Shown one piece after another: positions 18,869 to 53,757 of a DNA stretch of 64,000 nt. The notes under the pieces were generated by a model. That model saw nothing but the letters and a program-made list of their open reading frames with translations, searched no databases and was not told the DNA's origin. The stretch is from positions 62,001-126,000 of the forward strand of contig NZ_LT900021.1 of assembly GCF_900198835.1 (NCBI RefSeq). Reading direction: 5' to 3'. How positions within the stretch are numbered: position 1 is the first letter of the stretch; each line of letters begins with the position of its first letter. The DNA comes from Thermococcus henrietii (lineage in GTDB: Archaea; Methanobacteriota_B; Thermococci; Thermococcales; Thermococcaceae). Both the position numbers and the translations under genes were made by a program.

Positions 18869-20356
<1,488 letters not shown>

Positions 20357-23435: not shown

Positions 23436-24101
23436 ATGCTCTCCACAGGCTCGCGGAAGCTCGACGAACTGCTCGGGGGAGGCTTCGCCCCCGGCGTGCT
23501 CACCCAGATTTATGGCCCCTACGCCACAGGAAAGACGACCTTAGCGGTCCAGACGGGAATTCTGAGCGGTAAGAAGGTCGCCTACGTGGACACGGAGGGA
23601 GGCTTTTCTCCCGAACGGCTGAAGCAGATGGCGGAGGCGAGGAACCTCGACCCCGAGGAAGCTTTGTCGCGCTTCATCCTCTTCACTCCCGCCGATTTCA
23701 AGGAGCAGAGGAGGATTATAGGCTCGCTCAAGAAGGTCGTTGACGACTCGTTCTCGCTCGTAGTGGTGGATTCCATAACCGCCCACTACAGGGCCGAGGA
23801 GAACAGAATGGGCCTCCTAACTGACCTTAGCAGACAGCTCCAAGTTCTCCTCTGGATTGCAAGGAAGCAGAATATTCCGGTTCTCATAATCAACCAGGTG
23901 CATTACGACAGCCGGTTAGAGAGAACGAGGCCAGTGGCGGAACAAACCCTCGGCTATCGCTGTAAGGACATTTTGAGGCTCGACAAGCTTCCGAAGCCGG
24001 GCTTAAGGCTGGCCATTCTCGAAAGGCACCGCTTCCGTCCAGAGGGGACGATGGTCTACTTCAGGATTACGGAGAAGGGGATAGAGGACGTGGGCGAATG
24101 A
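23436..24101 (+). CDS. radB: RadB recombinase paralogue
   Basis: 221 residues, typical RadB: a RecA core without the N-terminal helix-hairpin-helix domain of RadA. Walker A is GPYATGKTT (27-35); Walker B is LVVVDSI near residue 110. RadB is thought to mediate RadA function and bind the Hjc resolvase in Thermococcales. It follows the metallo-hydrolase by nine bases. Its 3' end overlaps the convergent AAA/DUF234 ATPase gene by 35 bp. Confidence 0.95.
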   Translation: MLSTGSRKLDELLGGGFAPGVLTQIYGPYATGKTTLAVQTGILSGKKVAYVDTEGGFSPERLKQMAEARNLDPEEALSRFILFTPADFKEQRRIIGSLKKVVDDSFSLVVVDSITAHYRAEENRMGLLTDLSRQLQVLLWIARKQNIPVLIINQVHYDSRLERTRPVAEQTLGYRCKDILRLDKLPKPGLRLAILERHRFRPEGTMVYFRITEKGIEDVGE

Positions 24102-25476
24102 CGTCGTTAAGGTCAAAGGCTAGGAAGCCCTCTTCCCTTAGTTCCTCCTTGCCCTCAAGCTCCCTCGCTATGACCCCGAACTGGTAATCCCCTTTGAGCG
24201 GGAGAAGTTTCGCCTTCCTCTCAAGGGACTTCAAAACCTTCCTCGCGTCCCTCAGGCTCAGGTCCTTCCACTTAACCTCGAAGAGTAGGATGTTTTTCCG
24301 GTCGTAGGCGACCACGTCTATCTCTTCTCCCTTGTGCCACCACCTGCCAACGCGCTCCGGTTCAAAGCCTAAGTCGAGCCCTCTCACGAAGTCCACTGCT
24401 ATTCTCTCGTAGGTTTTGCCAACGAAGGCGGGAAACTCAGTTTTAAAGCGCTCAAAGACCTTCTCAGGATTCTCCTCAAGGGAGGTGTAGTTGTGGTAAA
24501 CGAAGCGGAACCAGAAGTTGAAGAATTCGTCAATTATGCGATAGATTACTTTCCTCGTCTTCAGCGGGTTCTCGGTGACGGGAACTTCCCTCGTCAGGTA
24601 CTCGAAGTGGTTGGTCAGCTCGCTGAGGTACTTGCCGACGGTGAGGAGCTTTATACCCGTTTTGTCGCTTATCTCCTTGGGCGTAACGTAGCCGAGGCTG
24701 ACCGCTTCGAGGATTGAGAAGTGAGCGCGGTAGAACCTGCCGAACTCCAGTTTGAGAACGTTCAGGCCCTCCTCCCTCAGCGGGGCGAACTCATCGAAGA
24801 ACAGCGCCTTCAGAGCCTCAAGAGAGTCTCCTCGATAGTAGCGCGGGACGTAGAGGAGGTACCGGGGCATTCCGCCCAAAGCCGAATAAAGCTCAACGAA
24901 ATCCCTCGGCGGAACGCTAACTTGCGAGCGCACGAAGTCGAAGGAGGTCCAGAAGTCAAAGGGCCTGAGCTTAACCCACTCGTCCACCCTGCCGAAGAGT
25001 GGCTCCTTTCTATCCATGAAGATGCGCTTAATCATGCCAACGTACGAGCCAACTGCGATGAGCATTAAGTTCGAGGTTTCCTTTTTCTCGTCCCAGAGCC
25101 TCTGGAGGGAGGAGAAGAAGGAAGGCTTAACCGTCCTGAAGTTCTGGAACTCGTCAAAGACCACAAGGAGCTTCCTCTCCCGCGAGAAGTCGAGCAGGAA
25201 CCCAACCAGCTCCTCCAGGGAGCCGAACTTTGGCTTCAAATATGAAGGAAGGTAAGCAGAAAGCTTTTCCTCAATCTCGCGCGAGTACTCTTCGAGGAGC
25301 AAAGCCTCGTCCTTCTCGCCCACGAAGAAGTAGAGGCCGAGCTTATCACTCAGAAACTCCTTGACCAAGGCGGTCTTCCCAACCCTCCTCCTGCCGTAAA
25401 TAACGAGAAAGCTTGAGCCCGGAAAGGAGTAAACCTCGTTGAGCTTCTCAAGCTCGTGCCCCCTGTCGTAGAACAT
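24067..25476 (-). CDS. archaeal AAA ATPase with C-terminal DUF234 nuclease-like domain
   Basis: 469 residues from the ATG at 25476, four bases after GGTGAG. Walker A is YGRRRVGKTALV (about 27-38), Walker B is LLVVFDEFQ near residue 105-113. The middle has a winged-helix-like region (PKEISDKTGIKLLTVGKYLSEL). The C-terminus carries the PD-(D/E)XK-like pattern GEEIDVVAYDRKNILLFEVKWK in pieces. This is the abundant COG1672-type archaeal ATPase, often found in accessory or defence regions; its role is unknown. An operator-like palindrome overlaps the promoter and start (25475-25511). It neighbours a restriction-modification gene. Confidence 0.88.
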   Translation of the reverse strand: MFYDRGHELEKLNEVYSFPGSSFLVIYGRRRVGKTALVKEFLSDKLGLYFFVGEKDEALLLEEYSREIEEKLSAYLPSYLKPKFGSLEELVGFLLDFSRERKLLVVFDEFQNFRTVKPSFFSSLQRLWDEKKETSNLMLIAVGSYVGMIKRIFMDRKEPLFGRVDEWVKLRPFDFWTSFDFVRSQVSVPPRDFVELYSALGGMPRYLLYVPRYYRGDSLEALKALFFDEFAPLREEGLNVLKLEFGRFYRAHFSILEAVSLGYVTPKEISDKTGIKLLTVGKYLSELTNHFEYLTREVPVTENPLKTRKVIYRIIDEFFNFWFRFVYHNYTSLEENPEKVFERFKTEFPAFVGKTYERIAVDFVRGLDLGFEPERVGRWWHKGEEIDVVAYDRKNILLFEVKWKDLSLRDARKVLKSLERKAKLLPLKGDYQFGVIARELEGKEELREEGFLAFDLNDVIRPRPLSPSP

Positions 25477-25511
25477 ATTACTCACCGAGTATATTACTGA
25501 GCGAGTAATAT
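25475..25511 (-). promoter_or_regulatory. palindromic repeats over TATA box and start codon of the AAA/DUF234 gene
   Basis: On the plus strand, ATATTACT(25491-25498) and AGTAATAT(25504-25511) form an 8-bp inverted repeat with a 5-base spacer. A further copy ATATTACTC lies at 25475-25483, covering the start codon. The TATA-like TTAAATATT overlaps the outer arm. This placement fits a repressor site, possibly autogenous. Confidence 0.6.
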
Positions 25512-25536: not shown

Positions 25537-28500
25537 TCAAAACTTTGGCTCTATCTTTTCAAGCTCCTTCACGAGCTCTATCGTCCGCTTTAGTATTTCC
25601 ACGACCTTGTAAATGTGCTCAAGCTCTTCTAAGCTGAGCTTTCTCCCCTTCCTGCCCTTGAGGTACTTCTCTATCACGCGGTAGCCGCCGATAGTGTAGT
25701 TCCAGACCTCCGGCGGAATGCCACAGAGCTTCGTTGTCCTGTTTATCGCCACGCAGTCCTTTCCATCGTACTTGACTCTCTCGATAGTCAAGTCGTCGCC
25801 GACGAGTTTCGGCTCTATTGGGAAGTCAACCTTCATCAGGTGAAGCCTTACCAGCTCCTCGCCGATTTTCCGATACTTCTCGAAGGTCTCTTTGTCGTAT
25901 AGCGGAATCCTCGGAAAGTCGAACTTGAGGAACTCCGCGTAGCGCTTCCTGTACTTGGGGTCGTGGAGAACTGCGTAGGCGTAGTAGAGAAAGTCCTCTG
26001 GAGTTATGTCGCCGTACCGTTTCCTGAGCTCTTCGAGAAACTCTGGCTTGATGTTGGGTCTTCTGGTTTTTCTGTCGTCGGAGTAGAGGTAGAGGGGGAA
26101 GACAACAGCCGCACTCCTGTTACTGAGGAAAATTCGCCTATCCGGGATACTATTCACAGCTAGGAAGTGAGTGTACTCATCATCTTTTAAGTAAACTTGT
26201 CTCATTGTGAGGAGACCTAAGTTATCTCCAAGAACGAAATGTTTCATAACATCATACCGAGCTCTCCCAATGAATTTTCTTGGCAGATACAACACCCATC
26301 TATAATCAAACGGCCGATAGAGATACAATTTTGCCCTCTCACCAAACCATTTCTCAAAGTCTTTATACTTCAAAAAATCTGAGTTAAGAGCCTTCATAGC
26401 ATCATTCAAAGTCCAGACGCTCTTGTCCTTAACACCGTACTTACGACGTATTTCTTCAGTACTAAGTTCTAAAAAGTCCTTAATGCGTTGTTTTAGTTCT
26501 TCTCTTGTGAATGCTATCGTAGCCGCATCGTTCTGCGTCTCAACCCCCGAACTGTAAACTTCAAAAATCTCGTCCAGCTTTGGGAACTTGGAGTATTCCT
26601 CCTCAAGGCTCAAGTCTTTTGGCACGAAAAAGTAGTATGGCTCTTTGGGCTTAATCTCCTCCCACTCAACGGTCTTCCAAGTATTGTTTCTCAAAAACTC
26701 GTACTTTTCCTCTCTCGTCGTTTTGCCTTCATCGTTCACTATCGAGCGGTAATAGACTTTGCACTCCTCGGCCCTGTGCTTTCCTTCCCTGAGCTTAACG
26801 AAGAGAGCTATCGCAACGCCCTGCTGAATGTCGAAGACGTTCTCATCATCTTCACCTCTTCTCGCGTTTCCGTGCAGGTTGAGGATGTAAATTTCGTCGA
26901 AGCTCTCCATCAGGCTCTGCCTCATTCTCCTGTGGACAAGACCGTCAAGGTAAGAGTTGTTCGTGATGAAACCGACTATTCCTTTGCCGTTCTGGTCTAT
27001 CTTCCACTGGGCGAAGCGTATGAACTTGACGTAGTCGTCCTGCAAAGCACCTTTCTTCTTCTCCTTCTCAACGCCAAGGCCGTGAAGGTAATCCTCCATG
27101 AGCTCAGCAATCCAGCCCTCGCTCGGCTTGACATCATACGGCGGGTTTCCAATGACGACGAAAATCTTTGCATCTCTCTTGACCTTATCTGCCTCCTCGC
27201 TCTCCCTGTCCAGAGCCATCTCAAAGAGTCCGGCCTGCCCGCGCTCGCGCATTATGTCAAGGGCGTTGGTGAGGTAAATCTTAAACCGCTCATTATCCTT
27301 CAGCTTTATACCCCACTGGTTAAGTACCATGGAGAGCTTGAGGTGTGCCACGAGGTAGGGGGAGATGAGTATCTCAAAGCCGTAAATGTTGTTCAAAAGC
27401 CTCTCTTTGAGGTAGAGCTGGAAGAGTTCTCCCCTGACGTTCTTGTGTATCCTGTTGAGGACTCCAGCGAGGAAAGTTCCCGTTCCGGTAGCGGGGTCGA
27501 GAATTGTAACGCCCTCCTGGTGAAGCCTCTTTCCAAACTTCTCCGTGAGTATCTCGTCCACTGAGTTAACTATGAACTCAACTACCGGAATGGGAGTGTA
27601 ATAAACGCCCTTTGATTTCCTCAGATGGGGATTGTACTCCGCCAGAAAAGTCTCGTAGAAGTGCAGAAACGGGTCAAACTCGCCGTTTCCGAAGTGGAAG
27701 CGCCTCTTGAGCTCCTCAACGTCAACGTTGTTGAGTATGGCTATGAGCTCATCGAGAATCCACTCAAGGTAATCGGGAAGTTCCGAGGCGACGTACTTGA
27801 ATATCTCGTGGACGACACGAAGGGACTTCGGAACACCTCTAAATGCAACGTTTTCCCTCGTGAGCTCCCCATCTATTGTAAACCTCGCCATGAAGAGGCC
27901 ATAAACAACAGTTTGAGCATAGGCATCAGCGAACTCACTCTTCGTCATCCCACTCATGAGGTGCTCTCTAAATGCCTTGTAGAGGTGCTGAAGCCCTTCG
28001 TCGTTTCCAAGGTTCTCAAGAACAATGTCTTTGAGAATCCTCGCCCTCTTTGCGAGTATTCTGGCAAGATTCTCGGGGTCTTTAATCTTTGGAACGGTGA
28101 AGCTCAAAAACCTCTCAATCAGCCTCTGAAACCGCTCAACGTTCGATTCAATCAAATTAAAGTTCTCATCAAGCAGAGAAACCTCATCAACTTTTTCTCC
28201 CCTCTGGTACAGGATGAAATCCAGATAGTTCGTCAAGATGAAATTATCAAGTCTCTCAACGTAGCGCTTGATTTGACCTTTGTCTCTCTTGGGCAGATTG
28301 TGGAGGTTCACATCGGGGGCCTTCGTTTCAATGTAGCCCAGTATTCCCCCATCTGTGGATATCTTGAAATCGGGGGCCCCAAAGGTTTCCCTTCCCGGTT
28401 CGTGTATTATCCTGACATCATATTCCTTCGGAAAAAGACCGCGCAGAAACTCGTGGAAGGCTGGTCTGTACGAGTACTCAGTCGTTTTCCCGGACTCATG

Positions 28501-28548
28501 AACTCGTTTAAGAGCCCGTGAATAGCCCTTTAAAACACCGGGCTTCAT
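25537..28548 (-). CDS. single-chain restriction-modification enzyme (type IIG/IIL-like N6-adenine methyltransferase-nuclease)
   Basis: 1003 residues from the ATG at 28548 (GGTGATAGA upstream). The N-terminus has a PD-(D/E)XK nuclease pattern: Asp60 in APDFKIS, then Glu74-x-Lys76 in GYIETKAPD. A helical connector follows. The gamma-class methyltransferase has motif X KGVYYTPIPV (313-), motif I ILDPATGTGTFL (349-360) and motif IV NPPY (468-471). The last 400 residues would hold the target recognition domain. There is no helicase, so it is not a type ISP enzyme. It would cut and methylate the same site. DNA for about residues 680-800 is much more AT-rich than the rest. TATA TTTTATATGG lies upstream. 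Confidence 0.9.
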   Translation of the reverse strand: MKPGVLKGYSRALKRVHESGKTTEYSYRPAFHEFLRGLFPKEYDVRIIHEPGRETFGAPDFKISTDGGILGYIETKAPDVNLHNLPKRDKGQIKRYVERLDNFILTNYLDFILYQRGEKVDEVSLLDENFNLIESNVERFQRLIERFLSFTVPKIKDPENLARILAKRARILKDIVLENLGNDEGLQHLYKAFREHLMSGMTKSEFADAYAQTVVYGLFMARFTIDGELTRENVAFRGVPKSLRVVHEIFKYVASELPDYLEWILDELIAILNNVDVEELKRRFHFGNGEFDPFLHFYETFLAEYNPHLRKSKGVYYTPIPVVEFIVNSVDEILTEKFGKRLHQEGVTILDPATGTGTFLAGVLNRIHKNVRGELFQLYLKERLLNNIYGFEILISPYLVAHLKLSMVLNQWGIKLKDNERFKIYLTNALDIMRERGQAGLFEMALDRESEEADKVKRDAKIFVVIGNPPYDVKPSEGWIAELMEDYLHGLGVEKEKKKGALQDDYVKFIRFAQWKIDQNGKGIVGFITNNSYLDGLVHRRMRQSLMESFDEIYILNLHGNARRGEDDENVFDIQQGVAIALFVKLREGKHRAEECKVYYRSIVNDEGKTTREEKYEFLRNNTWKTVEWEEIKPKEPYYFFVPKDLSLEEEYSKFPKLDEIFEVYSSGVETQNDAATIAFTREELKQRIKDFLELSTEEIRRKYGVKDKSVWTLNDAMKALNSDFLKYKDFEKWFGERAKLYLYRPFDYRWVLYLPRKFIGRARYDVMKHFVLGDNLGLLTMRQVYLKDDEYTHFLAVNSIPDRRIFLSNRSAAVVFPLYLYSDDRKTRRPNIKPEFLEELRKRYGDITPEDFLYYAYAVLHDPKYRKRYAEFLKFDFPRIPLYDKETFEKYRKIGEELVRLHLMKVDFPIEPKLVGDDLTIERVKYDGKDCVAINRTTKLCGIPPEVWNYTIGGYRVIEKYLKGRKGRKLSLEELEHIYKVVEILKRTIELVKELEKIEPKF

Positions 28549-28637
28549 TCTATCACCCTTTACCCAAACGGTGGGACCATATAAAACGCTTTCCAAAAGG
28601 TTTTTAGCTATGAAAACCTACTAAGTTTGGTGAGACT

Positions 28638-48980: not shown

Positions 48981-49259
48981 TCAGAGGTACTTCCCGAAGT
49001 TTTTATTCCTCTCACTCTGAACGGCGGTGATTGTTGAGTTATCCCCCACTGACCCAGGGTCCTCCCCAGAGATGAAACGGTATAGGCGTCGGATTACCAT
49101 CTCAACCCCAATATACCCCACAATCAACAACCCAACGAGTCTAGTCGCCACGTGGGCAAAGAACAGTGGAATCCCACCTATGAAACCGAACGTAAAGGCT
49201 GTCATCAGCCTAAGAAGCACGTTGTAACCGTAACGTTCCATAAAGAGGGTGATATCCAT
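48981..49259 (-). CDS. small membrane protein under a palindromic promoter
   Basis: 92 residues from the ATG at 49259, behind AGGTGAC. Two hydrophobic segments (LMTAFTFGFIGGIPLFFAHV and LVGLLIVGYIGVEMVI) and a polar tail. Unknown function. A perfect 9-bp palindrome lies between its TATA box and start codon. Confidence 0.65.
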   Translation of the reverse strand: MDITLFMERYGYNVLLRLMTAFTFGFIGGIPLFFAHVATRLVGLLIVGYIGVEMVIRRLYRFISGEDPGSVGDNSTITAVQSERNKNFGKYL

Positions 49260-49272
49260 GGATGTCACCTAA

Positions 49273-49301
49273 CTTTTACATTGATGTAAAAGATTATAAA
49301 C
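49273..49301 (-). promoter_or_regulatory. TATA box with adjoining perfect palindrome (operator candidate)
   Basis: CTTTTACAT (49273-49281) and ATGTAAAAG (49284-49292) form a perfect inverted repeat with a 2-base spacer. It directly adjoins GTTTATAATCT, the minus-strand TATA box (about 49291-49301). A protein bound here would block initiation of the small membrane gene, perhaps also of the divergent gene at 49378. Confidence 0.6.
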
Positions 49302-49377
49302 TTTTAGCCAGATAACGACGTTCGTAATGATAAAACGACTTAAAGTCAATGAGATGTACATTCAAGAGGTGATTGAG

Positions 49378-50398: not shown

Positions 50399-51295
50399 GT
50401 GACTTGGAATGTTGGTCTTTTCTACTATACTGGTAGTGGGACAACCCCAACATCGCAAATAAAAGACTTTGTAAGGGAGTTTGATGGGGCCATAATTTTA
50501 GGGCCAGAAACAGAGAGAGACTCAGCGGACATTGACAGGCTAATAGAGGTAATCAACAGGTTTTGGGACTTAAAGCCCGGATTCCAGTTGATAGCCGAAA
50601 TTCCAAACCCCCACGGCACATAGACATATCCCCAAATGAAAGACTGGCTCAATACTATAGAGAGGGGGATAGGTTCCAAGGTTAGAGGGTACTACTTAGT
50701 CCCGGAGGGAGCTTACACTATGTATACAGCTAGAGCCAAAGACGGGACATACTGCCGTGATAACATCCAAAAAATTGTTGAAGACATCAGGAACATGAAA
50801 AAATATGCCGTGTGGATTCCGATTGAGGATAACCTAAGCTTTGAATACATGGACAAGTGCCAAGAGCACATACACTTCACCAACATAGCTCCTCAGCCCC
50901 ACTACTATCAGGTCAGGGATGATACGGGGTACAAATACACTCCGAATTGCATAAAGGTAAAAGACCCACACAGACCAAACGGCATGAACTTCAATCAACT
51001 GAAAGCATTCATGCTGGAGTGCAAAAAACGGGGCTGGGGAGTTGAATTCGAATGCGATAACGCTGTAAGGGATGAATATGAGGGTGGAAAGAGGGAGAAC
51101 TGCGGATGCCAGTGCATACCGGAGGAAGACTTGAGATGCACTAACCGGGCGGCAGGATATTACTGTGCAAGCGATGCAGTTGGGGGATTTGAGTATATCT
51201 ATCATTATTTCAGCAATGACATTAGAAATTATTTAAAAGTAAAAAAAGAGTACACTAATAATTCTTGCAATGAAATAGTGAACAAAACTTGTTGA
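50399..51295 (+). pseudogene. DUF4855-like gene interrupted by one in-frame amber codon
   Basis: Two open segments, 50399-50623 (74 residues) and 50636-51295, lie in the same frame and are separated only by a TAG at 50621-50623 and four codons (Thr-Tyr-Pro-Gln) before the next Met. Read through, the product is about 298 residues. It starts with a GTG well placed behind GGAGGTGATA. The sequence AVWIPIEDNLSFEYMDK and FTNIAPQPHYYQ resembles the barrel-like DUF4855 family. The C-terminus has a cysteine cluster CGCQCIPEEDLRC. No signal peptide. The 3' third is strongly AT-rich. Nothing in the window suggests recoding. Confidence 0.7.
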
Positions 51296-51361: not shown

Positions 51362-52447
51362 ATGAAGACAACCATACCGATTGTGGCGATGCTTATTGGG
51401 ATTATGCTCCTCCCTTTAGCTATGGCGGGTAATAGGCTGGAGATATGGGGGCTCGCCTCCAACGGAACGGCCGCGATGGTAACGTACTACACTGGAAGCG
51501 AGTTTCACACGGTCCTCTACGACGGAAAAACCTTCTACGAGGTGCCCATTCCCTCAGGAAGAGATGACATAAAGAAAACTCCCTTTTTCCTCCAGCCCAA
51601 CGACTGGACCTACTTTGATAGGCTGAACCCCTACGTCATCGGCTACTTCAAAGGCCTATGGATTTTCGGCGGCGTCGAAAGGGTCGCGACCTTGGACTGG
51701 AAGACGTTTAGGGTGTATTCAAACCCCGGCTGTTCAACTTGCCAGCCAATCGAGTTCAGAGCGGGACGCGACAGGGCGGCGCTCGTCATGGAGAAGACCA
51801 CCATGATGACGTTTCAAATCCTAGTCTGGTTCAACGGGACGGACTTCGAGACGACGAACCTGACGGCCGACGAGATACACGTCGCGCCCATCGGGAACGA
51901 ATGGCTTGTCTACACCAAGACCGGAAACCGAACGTCGCTTTACCTCCAGCAAAGCGGTTCAAAGCTCTCAATAGAGTGCCCAAGCGGGCTTGAGGTCTAC
52001 TCGATGTCGTCGAACGGCTCGGCGGTTCTAATAGCCACCAACAGAGGTCTGTACGTTTACAGAGATGGAAGAAACCTATCCAAGATTTCGGAGGCGGGTG
52101 CAAGCTTAGCAGTCTGGAACGGGCGCTGGTTGGTGTTTGAGGGGAGCAAAATCATCGAGTACGATGGGAGACACCTAAGGGAGGTTGCCCAACTCAACAT
52201 CACGCCAACTTACGTGGCCCCATTCAAGGGCTCCGTTCTCGTTGCGGGCAGTGTGGGAACGAGGAAGTGGAAGCTGCTCATGGTCTCAGCGGATGGGAAA
52301 GTCGAGGACCTAACGAAGGAAATGACGTCCCCCAAGCCATGGACGGATAGAAACGAGGAAGAAGGGCGGAAAATCTGCGGGCCGGGACTGCTCGCGCTCC
52401 TGACGGTGGTTTTTGGAATGCTTGGGTGTCGGTTCACACCTCGCTGA
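51362..52447 (+). CDS. secreted beta-propeller-like protein with CGP-CTERM-like tail
   Basis: 361 residues. Signal peptide MKTTIPIVAMLIGIMLLPL ends near AMA-GN. The mature part consists of repeated short beta strands with aromatic and Asn-Gly turns (NGTAAMVTYY, DGKTFYEVP, WNGRWLVFEGSK, DGRHLREVA), suggesting a propeller. The end KICGPGLLALLTVVFGMLG is the CGP-CTERM type sorting tail of Thermococcales, but the final basic run is weak (CRFTPR rather than several Arg). Function unknown; it is probably a surface protein. Confidence 0.75.
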   Translation: MKTTIPIVAMLIGIMLLPLAMAGNRLEIWGLASNGTAAMVTYYTGSEFHTVLYDGKTFYEVPIPSGRDDIKKTPFFLQPNDWTYFDRLNPYVIGYFKGLWIFGGVERVATLDWKTFRVYSNPGCSTCQPIEFRAGRDRAALVMEKTTMMTFQILVWFNGTDFETTNLTADEIHVAPIGNEWLVYTKTGNRTSLYLQQSGSKLSIECPSGLEVYSMSSNGSAVLIATNRGLYVYRDGRNLSKISEAGASLAVWNGRWLVFEGSKIIEYDGRHLREVAQLNITPTYVAPFKGSVLVAGSVGTRKWKLLMVSADGKVEDLTKEMTSPKPWTDRNEEEGRKICGPGLLALLTVVFGMLGCRFTPR

Positions 52448-52452
52448 CCCCT

Positions 52453-52506
52453 ATTGTGTATTAAAAATACACAATCTTTTTATATTATTGTGTATTAGAG
52501 ATACAT
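52453..52506 (+). promoter_or_regulatory. twin palindromes flanking the TATA box of the second AAA ATPase gene
   Basis: ATTGTGTATT (52453-52462) and AATACACAAT (52466-52475) form a perfect 10-bp inverted repeat with a 3-base spacer. The same half-site ATTGTGTATT recurs at 52487-52496, followed by a partial inverse GATACATAT reaching the ATG. The TATA-like CTTTTTATATT lies exactly between. This is a strong repressor-operator layout. Confidence 0.65.
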
Positions 52507-53757
52507 ATGATTTCACTCACAGAAATCACCGAGGAGTACCTCTGCTCGCTCAGGTTCATTGAGGAGATTCCAAGGGAAGTGCCGTTGCCCACTGGAAAGG
52601 ATATAAAAGCTGTAATCGGGCCAAGGAGAGTCGGCAAAACGTTCCTGCTCCTCAAAACTGCTGAAAAACTAAGAGAGGAGAAAAACGTCGTGTACATACC
52701 CTTTGACGAACCCGAGCTGAGGAAGATGAGCGCGAGGGAATTTGCCGAGGCCGTCAGGGAGGAGTTTCCAGAGGGGGAGGTAACACTATTCCTCGATGAG
52801 ATACAGGAATGGGAGGACTGGGACGTCAAACTCCGCTGGCTTCACGACGTTAAGGACTTTGACATATACGTTTCCGGGTCTTCATCAAGCCTCATGTCCT
52901 CGGAAATCCCGAGCAGGCTGCGGGGAAGGCACGTTTCAAGGCTCGTTTTGCCTCTCTCCTTCCGAGAGGTGGGCGGTGAGAGCCCAAAGACGTTCCGGGA
53001 AAGGGGAAAGATACGAAAGCTGCTAAGGGAGTACCTTCGATGGGGAGGTTTTCCCGAGGTCTGGACGACGAGGTCGAGGGAAAAGATAATCTCAATCCTC
53101 GAAACCATGTTCTACAGAGATATGGTCGAGCGCTTTGCCTTCAGGGACGTCAAGGAGTTTCAGGAGGCGTTTTACCACATTATCTCCCTCTACGGGGGCT
53201 ATTTCACATACCATTCCCTTCAGCGGGCGTTGAAGGGTATGGGGATTGACGCCAACGTCAAGACCGTGATGAACTACCTTCGGGCTATGGAGGAGGCATT
53301 TCTGGTCTTTCAGCTCCCCGTGTTTGTGCCCTCGATGAGAAAAATCTTGAGAAGCCCAAGAAAGCTTTATCTGGTTGATATAGCATTCGCAAACCTCTTC
53401 TTCAAGGGGCTCGACGAGGGCAGGAGAATCGAAAACATGGTTTTTATCGAACTTCTCAGGGAGAAGAGCTACTGGAGGCCTGAGATTGAGCTGTCATACT
53501 ACTCCAACGGGGACATTGAGGTGGACTTCGTTGTTAGAGCCGGTGGGCACATCGAAGAGCTTGTTCAGGTAACCTACGAACTAAACGCATCCAATTACGA
53601 GAGAGAGGTTAGAAACCTCGTTAAAGCTGGAAAGAAGCTCGGAGTCAAAAAGCTAACCGTTGTAACGCTTGAAGACGAGAAAACCATTAAAGAAGGCGGG
53701 AAAACCGTAGAGGTCATCCCATTGTGGAAGTTCTTGCTCAGAGAACCTCAAAGCTAA
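52507..53757 (+). CDS. archaeal AAA ATPase with DUF4143-type C-terminus
   Basis: 416 residues. Walker A is [11 protein letters not shown] (38-48), Walker [13 protein letters not shown] (91-102), sensor VSGSSSSLM near residue 125. The C-terminal half has the winged-helix and PD-(D/E)XK-like DUF4143 pattern, ending with [16 protein letters not shown] and [11 protein letters not shown]. It is a cousin of the 24.1-kb ATPase. The family is common in archaeal accessory DNA, function unknown. Expression seems controlled by the palindromes directly upstream. Its end overlaps the convergent alaX gene by 20 bp. Confidence 0.88.

Follow-up and report, generated by a model that had tools for sequence, protein, structure and literature searches.

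Private, regularly spaced promoter repeats accompany two families of candidate defence ATPases in Thermococcus henrietii and related archaea

The window analysed here, a stretch of 64,000 nucleotides (bases 62001-126000) from the genome of Thermococcus henrietii, carries at 52507..53757 (+) a gene for a 416-aa ATPase in which an AAA_14 domain and a winged helix precede a PD-(D/E)XK-like DUF4143 domain and which corresponds to PADLOC PDC-S01. Directly upstream lie two copies of a palindrome, neither assigned to a strand. Copy 1 (52453..52475) has perfect arms of 10 bp, ATTGTGTATT at 52453-52462 and AATACACAAT at 52466-52475, separated by an AAA spacer. It is followed at once by CTTTTTATATT (52476..52486, +), which from its sequence is probably the TATA element of the promoter and which fills exactly the gap between the two copies. 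Copy 2 (52487..52506) is imperfect, with 90% identity to copy 1 over 20 nt; it lies 34 bp downstream and adjoins the ATG at 52507. The distance from TATA to ATG suggests a leaderless promoter, with this ATG as the expected start of the mRNA. The general form of the element is TGTGTATT-NNN-AATACACA, with copies centred at 52464 and 52498. A preliminary description of the window had placed a palindrome at 52453, a TATA box in between and a partial copy reaching the ATG, and all three are present. Farther upstream, the ORFs at 50399-50623 and 50636-51295 (+) are perhaps one interrupted gene; neither piece has a Pfam match.

By itself the palindrome is weak evidence and not rare: two perfect palindromes with 10-bp arms and spacers of 0-6 occur in the window, where 12 random windows drawn from a Markov-1 model averaged 0.75. 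The only other one in the window is at 19556-19578. The significance of the 52-kb palindrome comes from its second copy, its promoter position and the comparison with other genes. Inverted-repeat scores of at least 10 were found for 6 of 10 DUF4143 promoters of the same genome and for 4 of 241 control promoters, a set that took in ATPase promoters; two of its four positives are ATPase promoters themselves. Among the top-scoring non-ATPase controls is the gene at 49327, whose palindrome-rich promoter (window ~49240-49326) contains CTTTTACATTGATGTAAAAG and a second repeat.

Within the 52-kb protein, the AAA_14 P-loop domain covers residues 32-155 (52600..52971, +; Walker A GPRRVGKT, Walker B LFLDE). 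An AlphaFold2 model (pLDDT 89.6, pTM 0.90) places the winged helix at approximately residues 213-290 (53143..53376, +; boundaries from secondary structure), with its third helix at 251-263, and a PD-(D/E)XK-like domain at approximately residues 300-410 (53404..53736, +), which includes E309, D340, Q354-V-T and R366. The second ATPase of the window, a 469-aa protein encoded at 24067..25476 (-), combines ATPase_2, winged-helix and DUF234 domains according to profile matches and its AlphaFold model (pLDDT 92.3, pTM 0.89), and corresponds to PDC-S27. In both models a P-loop domain is followed by helices and a winged helix, and the C-terminus forms a PD-(D/E)XK-like domain; we took these names from the profile matches and from the secondary structure. 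The PDC-S01 profile PDLC04787 matched residues 30-413 of the 52-kb protein (E 6.6e-95), and the PDC-S27 profile PDLC04984 matched the 24-kb protein (E 1.4e-44); both systems are single-gene ATPases with a PD-(D/E)XK domain, and their profiles match most of both window proteins. PHROGs gave no match for either ATPase and NCBIfam gave none; a PDB sequence search found no relative that covers the 52-kb protein over its full length.

The two families differ at the catalytic D...(D/E)xK motif. The 24-kb family has the canonical D387 and E400-V-K402, with D387, E400 and K402 invariant in 21 aligned rows. The 52-kb family has D340 in 136/136 proteins, with ExK replaced by Q at 354 in 134/136 and by T or S at 356 in 133/136; given E309, D340 and Q354-x-T/S instead of ExK, catalysis is doubtful. 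Several bacterial relatives of the 52-kb protein have the same Q-x-T/S-type reading.

STAND NTPases carry a GxP-type motif after the P-loop core. The corresponding residues are G180 and P183 in the 52-kb family (invariant in 26 rows; GGFP, one residue longer) and G202 and P204 in the 24-kb family (invariant in 21 rows), and the first ~300 residues of both models have the STAND arrangement of P-loop module, helical and winged-helix domains. This region aligns best with the archaeal ATPases 2qen (P. abyssi PAB2304) and 2fna (SSO1545), with Z of 23.9 and 21.4 for the 24-kb protein and 15.1 and 15.6 for the 52-kb protein. Plant NLRs, CED-4 and Apaf-1 come next, together with Avs and ORC proteins; STAND NTPases and NLRs (CED-4, Apaf-1, plant resistosomes, Avs4/Avs5) share the NBD-helical-winged-helix arrangement at Z of ~11-16. 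Unlike these, the window ATPases have no sensor repeats, end in a nuclease-fold domain and are predicted to have private DNA sites.

The same genome holds 13 DUF4143 matches (12 above the cut-off) and 22 ATPase_2 matches (16 above the cut-off). The 52-kb gene is one of ~28 ATPase genes there that belong either to the DUF4143 family (PDC-S01-like) or to the ATPase_2 family (PDC-S27-like and shorter). Most of them have a palindrome or repeat of their own at the promoter, and the sequences differ. Among the matches listed, a relative of the 52-kb protein was present in at least 84 of 94 Thermococcaceae genomes. From the upper rows of the listed relatives we took 100 regions, and we assembled 136 DUF4143 genes; L010, L011 and L013, which did not match the Walker A pattern used, fall outside this set. 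When the promoters were read in tree order, nearly every clade had its own element.

We then scored direct repeats at offsets of 20-50 in 135 of these promoters (L149 had no upstream DNA). A repeat scoring at least 9 was found in 92/135, in every case at 32-35 bp: 32 bp in 2, 33 in 31, 34 in 42 and 35 in 17. The other 43 promoters fell under the threshold. Of 239 control promoters, which include that of the 24-kb ATPase, 18 had such a repeat, at 20-30, 36, 39, 41 or 48 bp, and none of the 18 was at 32-35 bp. The 92 arrays belong to related genes and are not independent events; by hand typing they comprise ~20 operator types. Only 46/92 were individually palindromic at p<=0.05. A TATA-like hexamer lies in the spacer of 43/92 two-copy arrays, compared with 14 of 675 control stretches. 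Several arrays have 3-4 copies at the same period, and the TATA box comes after all of them; the spacing is therefore also found between copies that both lie upstream of TATA, so promoter geometry alone is not its cause. That ~20 unlike sequences share one spacing suggests that a single protein family binds them all.

In 38/92 arrays the last copy ends no more than 6 bp from an in-frame start, as might be expected if the palindromes acted in RNA, as attenuator hairpins, as a block of the start codon or as terminators of the upstream gene. We regard this as very improbable: copy 1 of the 52-kb operator precedes the TATA element and would be absent from a transcript of that promoter, the copies are direct repeats with constant spacing, and Rfam gave no family at gathering score across 52200-52800, the one sub-threshold match there being inside the coding region.

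The spacing rule also held out of sample. A phylum-wide search for relatives reached as far as the same class. DUF4143 genes from another family of this class gave 8 matches (one at a contig edge and one fragment); the six with upstream DNA, representing 3 operator types, had best periods of 33, 33, 33, 34, 34 and 33 bp when offsets of 12-60 were allowed. Among 8 plasmid-borne relatives of the 52-kb protein, the single archaeal one, from Methanomethylovorans, has a 32-bp repeat, and no spacing rule was seen for the 7 bacterial ones; 11 distant relatives on viral contigs had no consistent spacing. Distant relatives of the 52-kb ATPase were found in 230 plasmid records, 172 of them Acinetobacter plasmids.

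Close orthologues of the 52-kb gene (61-83% identity, plus one broken gene) offered 13 readable upstream regions besides the window, counting once the identical DNA of L041 and L066. The layout is kept in all 13, with the same operator in 10 and a replaced one in 3, and the 33-34-bp spacing is kept wherever two copies score. The ten retain TGTGTATT (as in L036), the L046 copy being degenerate. The replacements are TGTTTCC..GGAAACA in L047 and the broken gene L049, and a TGTGGAGT-type operator in L048, whose upstream region contains copies of TTGTGGAGTATAAATCCACAA. The expectation of the preliminary description that palindromes would stand upstream of orthologues and match their subfamily was borne out, the ~20 operator types tracking protein clades. 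As regards the two-gene operon of type II toxin-antitoxin systems, upstream sequences differ between some of the 52-kb orthologues.

With types assigned by hand, the tree in view, the same operator type was shared by 207/242 gene pairs at protein distances of 0.2-0.3, 77/120 at 0.3-0.4, 5/372 at 0.4-0.5 and 0/2249 at 0.5-0.6. Both attempts to map operator specificity onto the winged helix failed: a partial Mantel analysis of 135 genes gave a specificity signal of r only ~0.1, peaking at residues 268-302, and a regression that covered 131 genes, their operators sorted by hand into 21 types, found no excess for the winged helix.

In the single-contig genome of 2.16 Mb, the 52-kb operator occurs at <=2 mismatches at two sites, both in its own promoter. 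When 22 operators of this genome were compared with 26 ATPase promoters, each matched its own promoter best, and in 20/22 the next-best promoter was at least 3 mismatches farther away. The two exceptions are the short operators of L012 and L021, which also match another ATPase promoter with <=2 mismatches. Against the 239 control promoters, 0-mismatch matches were found at the 24-kb ATPase promoter, which belongs to that set, and at the divergent neighbour of L025; the L006 operator is <=2 mismatches from one control promoter. In other genomes, single sites of the 52-kb operator (<=1 mismatch) occur in six that have no orthologue, and in four of these (G001, G025, G027, G038) the site is at the vacated locus, beside the same neighbour gene. 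The sequences thus give good support to private operators, and their scope, two large ATPase families with an operator geometry for each, is far wider than the preliminary description had stated. Of its proposal that each ATPase controls itself through a private operator, the privacy is upheld by the cross-match of 22 operators and the ~20 types by clade; the self-control is what these patterns suggest.

The 24-kb gene follows a second rule. Its operator array, ATTAC-N7-GTAAT plus a further GTAAT at a 16-bp repeat, occupies 25475..25511 (no strand assigned) and runs into the ATG; all the repeats lie downstream of the TATA element and overlap the start codon. The likeness to the 52-kb gene claimed earlier therefore holds for the presence of repeats at the promoter and fails for their arrangement, with both repeats downstream of TATA and a 16-bp period, and the two ATPases share neither family nor layout, being AAA_14+DUF4143 and ATPase_2+DUF234 proteins with different geometry. 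In 28/28 orthologues of the 24-kb gene, TTAAATATTAC-N7-GTAATATAC-N7-GTAAT precedes the start codon, with invariant half-site bases and variable spacers. DUF234-class paralogues of the same genome have periods of 14-16 bp in 7/8 cases, and the eighth also has 16 bp, through a TTTATA repeat only. None of the 19 control repeats scoring at least 8 was at 14-16 bp (238 promoters, that of the 24-kb ATPase excluded). Plasmid relatives from Methanocaldococcus jannaschii and haloarchaea had a best period of 15 bp in 7/8, one weakly scored; these amount to about three independent sequences, five sharing TCATTATC-like repeats and two sharing TAGCCAATTC. A third class, ATPases of 350-377 aa, has a 19-bp period in 5/7 and 17 bp in two, some with weak scores. 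The best structural matches, 2qen and 2fna, are likewise ~350 aa and have no nuclease domain, and ATPases of that size in this genome mostly have 19-bp periods. Five of the 350-377-aa genes (L027, L023, L024, L022 and L017) have long palindromes, with arms of up to 13 bp, over the start codon. Directly upstream of the 24-kb ATPase, a 1019-aa ORF (window 25537-28596, -) has by eye the look of a type ISP or IIG restriction-modification protein.

Some arrays stand without an ATPase. The element TTTACCAGTATGNTGGTAAA belongs to the ATPase that follows serA in 18/18 stretches, 14 of which also include a fumarase gene. At 12 fetched loci from genomes without that ATPase, serA is followed by copies of TTTACCAGTATGNTGGTAAA, with a fumarase gene in the stretch in 9/12, and some of these orphan sites are perfect. 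In G026 and G047 a 3' remnant of the ATPase follows the array directly, which points to relics; other empty loci have different junctions. The ATPase thus appears, from these sequences, to have been lost repeatedly at the serA locus, leaving the array behind. In L187 (G070), at ~1670-1949, serA and fumarase are separated by an orphan tandem array in which the palindrome is repeated several times in phase, and no ATPase is present there. In the T. henrietii genome itself (L002, 2157-2176), only 19 bp separate the end of the DUF4143 ATPase from the fumarase alpha gene, a gap that suggests the two are perhaps co-transcribed, and the fumarase promoter seems to overlap the ATPase 3' end.

The presence and absence of an ATPase at one serA-fumarase locus might also be read as a mobile gene cassette, with the repeats as its ends or target site. 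This is the least probable reading we considered: the arrays are on one side only, and the differing deletion scars of the empty loci, two of which keep the ATPase tail, indicate loss and not precise insertion.

Archaeal Orc1/Cdc6 initiators have binding sites in the form of repeated inverted elements close to the genes that encode them, and they share an AAA domain and a winged helix with the window ATPases. The arrays might accordingly be loading, partition or origin-like sites for an AAA oligomer, comparable to iterons or to the ORB elements by archaeal Orc1 genes, with promoter overlap as a secondary matter. Tandem arrays of at least three phased copies, the structural likeness to ORC/Cdc6 and TnsC and the ability of arrays to outlast the ATPase fit such a role. 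We nevertheless consider it improbable, since many arrays are just two copies around a TATA box or start codon, more than 20 different arrays lie on one chromosome, and the orphan arrays at the fumarase locus carry deletion remnants. Moreover, Orc1/Cdc6 proteins recognize a conserved origin element instead of private ones and lack a nuclease domain.

A rather unlikely alternative is that transcription factors encoded at other loci occupy the arrays, the ATPases being merely regulated targets. Orphan arrays that persist without their ATPase are compatible with this, as are the failed mapping of specificity to the winged helix and the indirect case for the ATPase as binder. However, each of the ~20 operator sequences would call for a dedicated factor of its own, all of them imposing 32-35 bp, while the other ATPase family has 15-16 bp instead; each operator tracks its ATPase clade, and the 52-kb operator has no site in its own genome beyond its promoter.

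We consider it likely, on the patterns described, that each ATPase binds its own phased operator array and represses its own gene. Several observations weigh against this: both mappings of specificity failed, 43/135 promoters fell under the repeat threshold, half of the 92 arrays were not individually palindromic, arrays persist after serA in genomes that lack the ATPase, and the bacterial plasmid relatives have no such spacing. As in a self-repressing regulator, the palindromic operator overlaps the promoter of its own gene, from which we infer binding and repression by the product. The ATPase would bind as an oligomer that sets a fixed distance between sites, 32-35 bp in the DUF4143 family and about 15-16 bp in the DUF234 family; the common spacing would reflect the oligomer and the different sequences private recognition. 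At 52.5 kb, the two bound sites would cover the upstream border of the TATA/BRE region and the transcription start, respectively, which would exclude TBP/TFB or RNA polymerase and keep expression low. Private sequences would stop the many paralogues from controlling one another, with operator and protein diverging together. The ATP cycle of a STAND-like switch may alter DNA affinity, and release, probably coupled to the ATP state on sensing a virus or another foreign trigger, would raise expression of a putative defence ATPase. The preliminary description had spoken of a toxin-like or defence device: the PADLOC matches to PDC-S01 and PDC-S27, themselves candidates, are consistent with defence, and the toxin-like part found no support of its own.

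A more speculative reading, which we think unlikely though worth stating, is that the arrays are self-recognition tags: a phased NLR-like oligomer on its own array would keep the nuclease-fold domain inactive and the gene silent, and titration by DNA or a trigger would free both. If so, the repeated operator switching between orthologues would stem from viral decoys or from paralogues competing with one another, and STAND/NLR-like proteins would here use their winged helix to read a specific DNA sequence.

Autorepression through repeated palindromes has a parallel in defence-island control: the available text of PMC12255303 describes RptR-type repressors that repress themselves through repeated palindromes in the defence genes' own promoter. 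RptR, as described there, is a small dedicated repressor with one conserved motif, whereas here the ATPase itself is the predicted repressor, with an operator for each paralogue. DNA binding by an NLR is also on record, for plant Rx1, in the available text of PMC4599002. According to the accessible part of PMC12988326, PDC-S01 is the fourth most common defence system across prokaryotes, PDC-S01 and PDC-S27 are enriched in archaea, and validation is pending for most such candidates; 'palindrom' and 'promoter' each have 0 occurrences in that part. We found no report of these promoter arrays in the open-access literature, and they are a new element relative to that account of PDC-S01 and PDC-S27.

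PDC-S01 is a very common family of archaeal ATPases, suspected to be antiviral, for which we found no trigger, partner or target in the literature. A private operator with family-specific spacing gives it a testable handle: the DNA that is bound, the number of subunits and the timing of release. The dozens of natural protein-operator pairs are material for a recognition code, and binding by the ATPases would link an NLR-like winged helix to sequence-specific DNA recognition.
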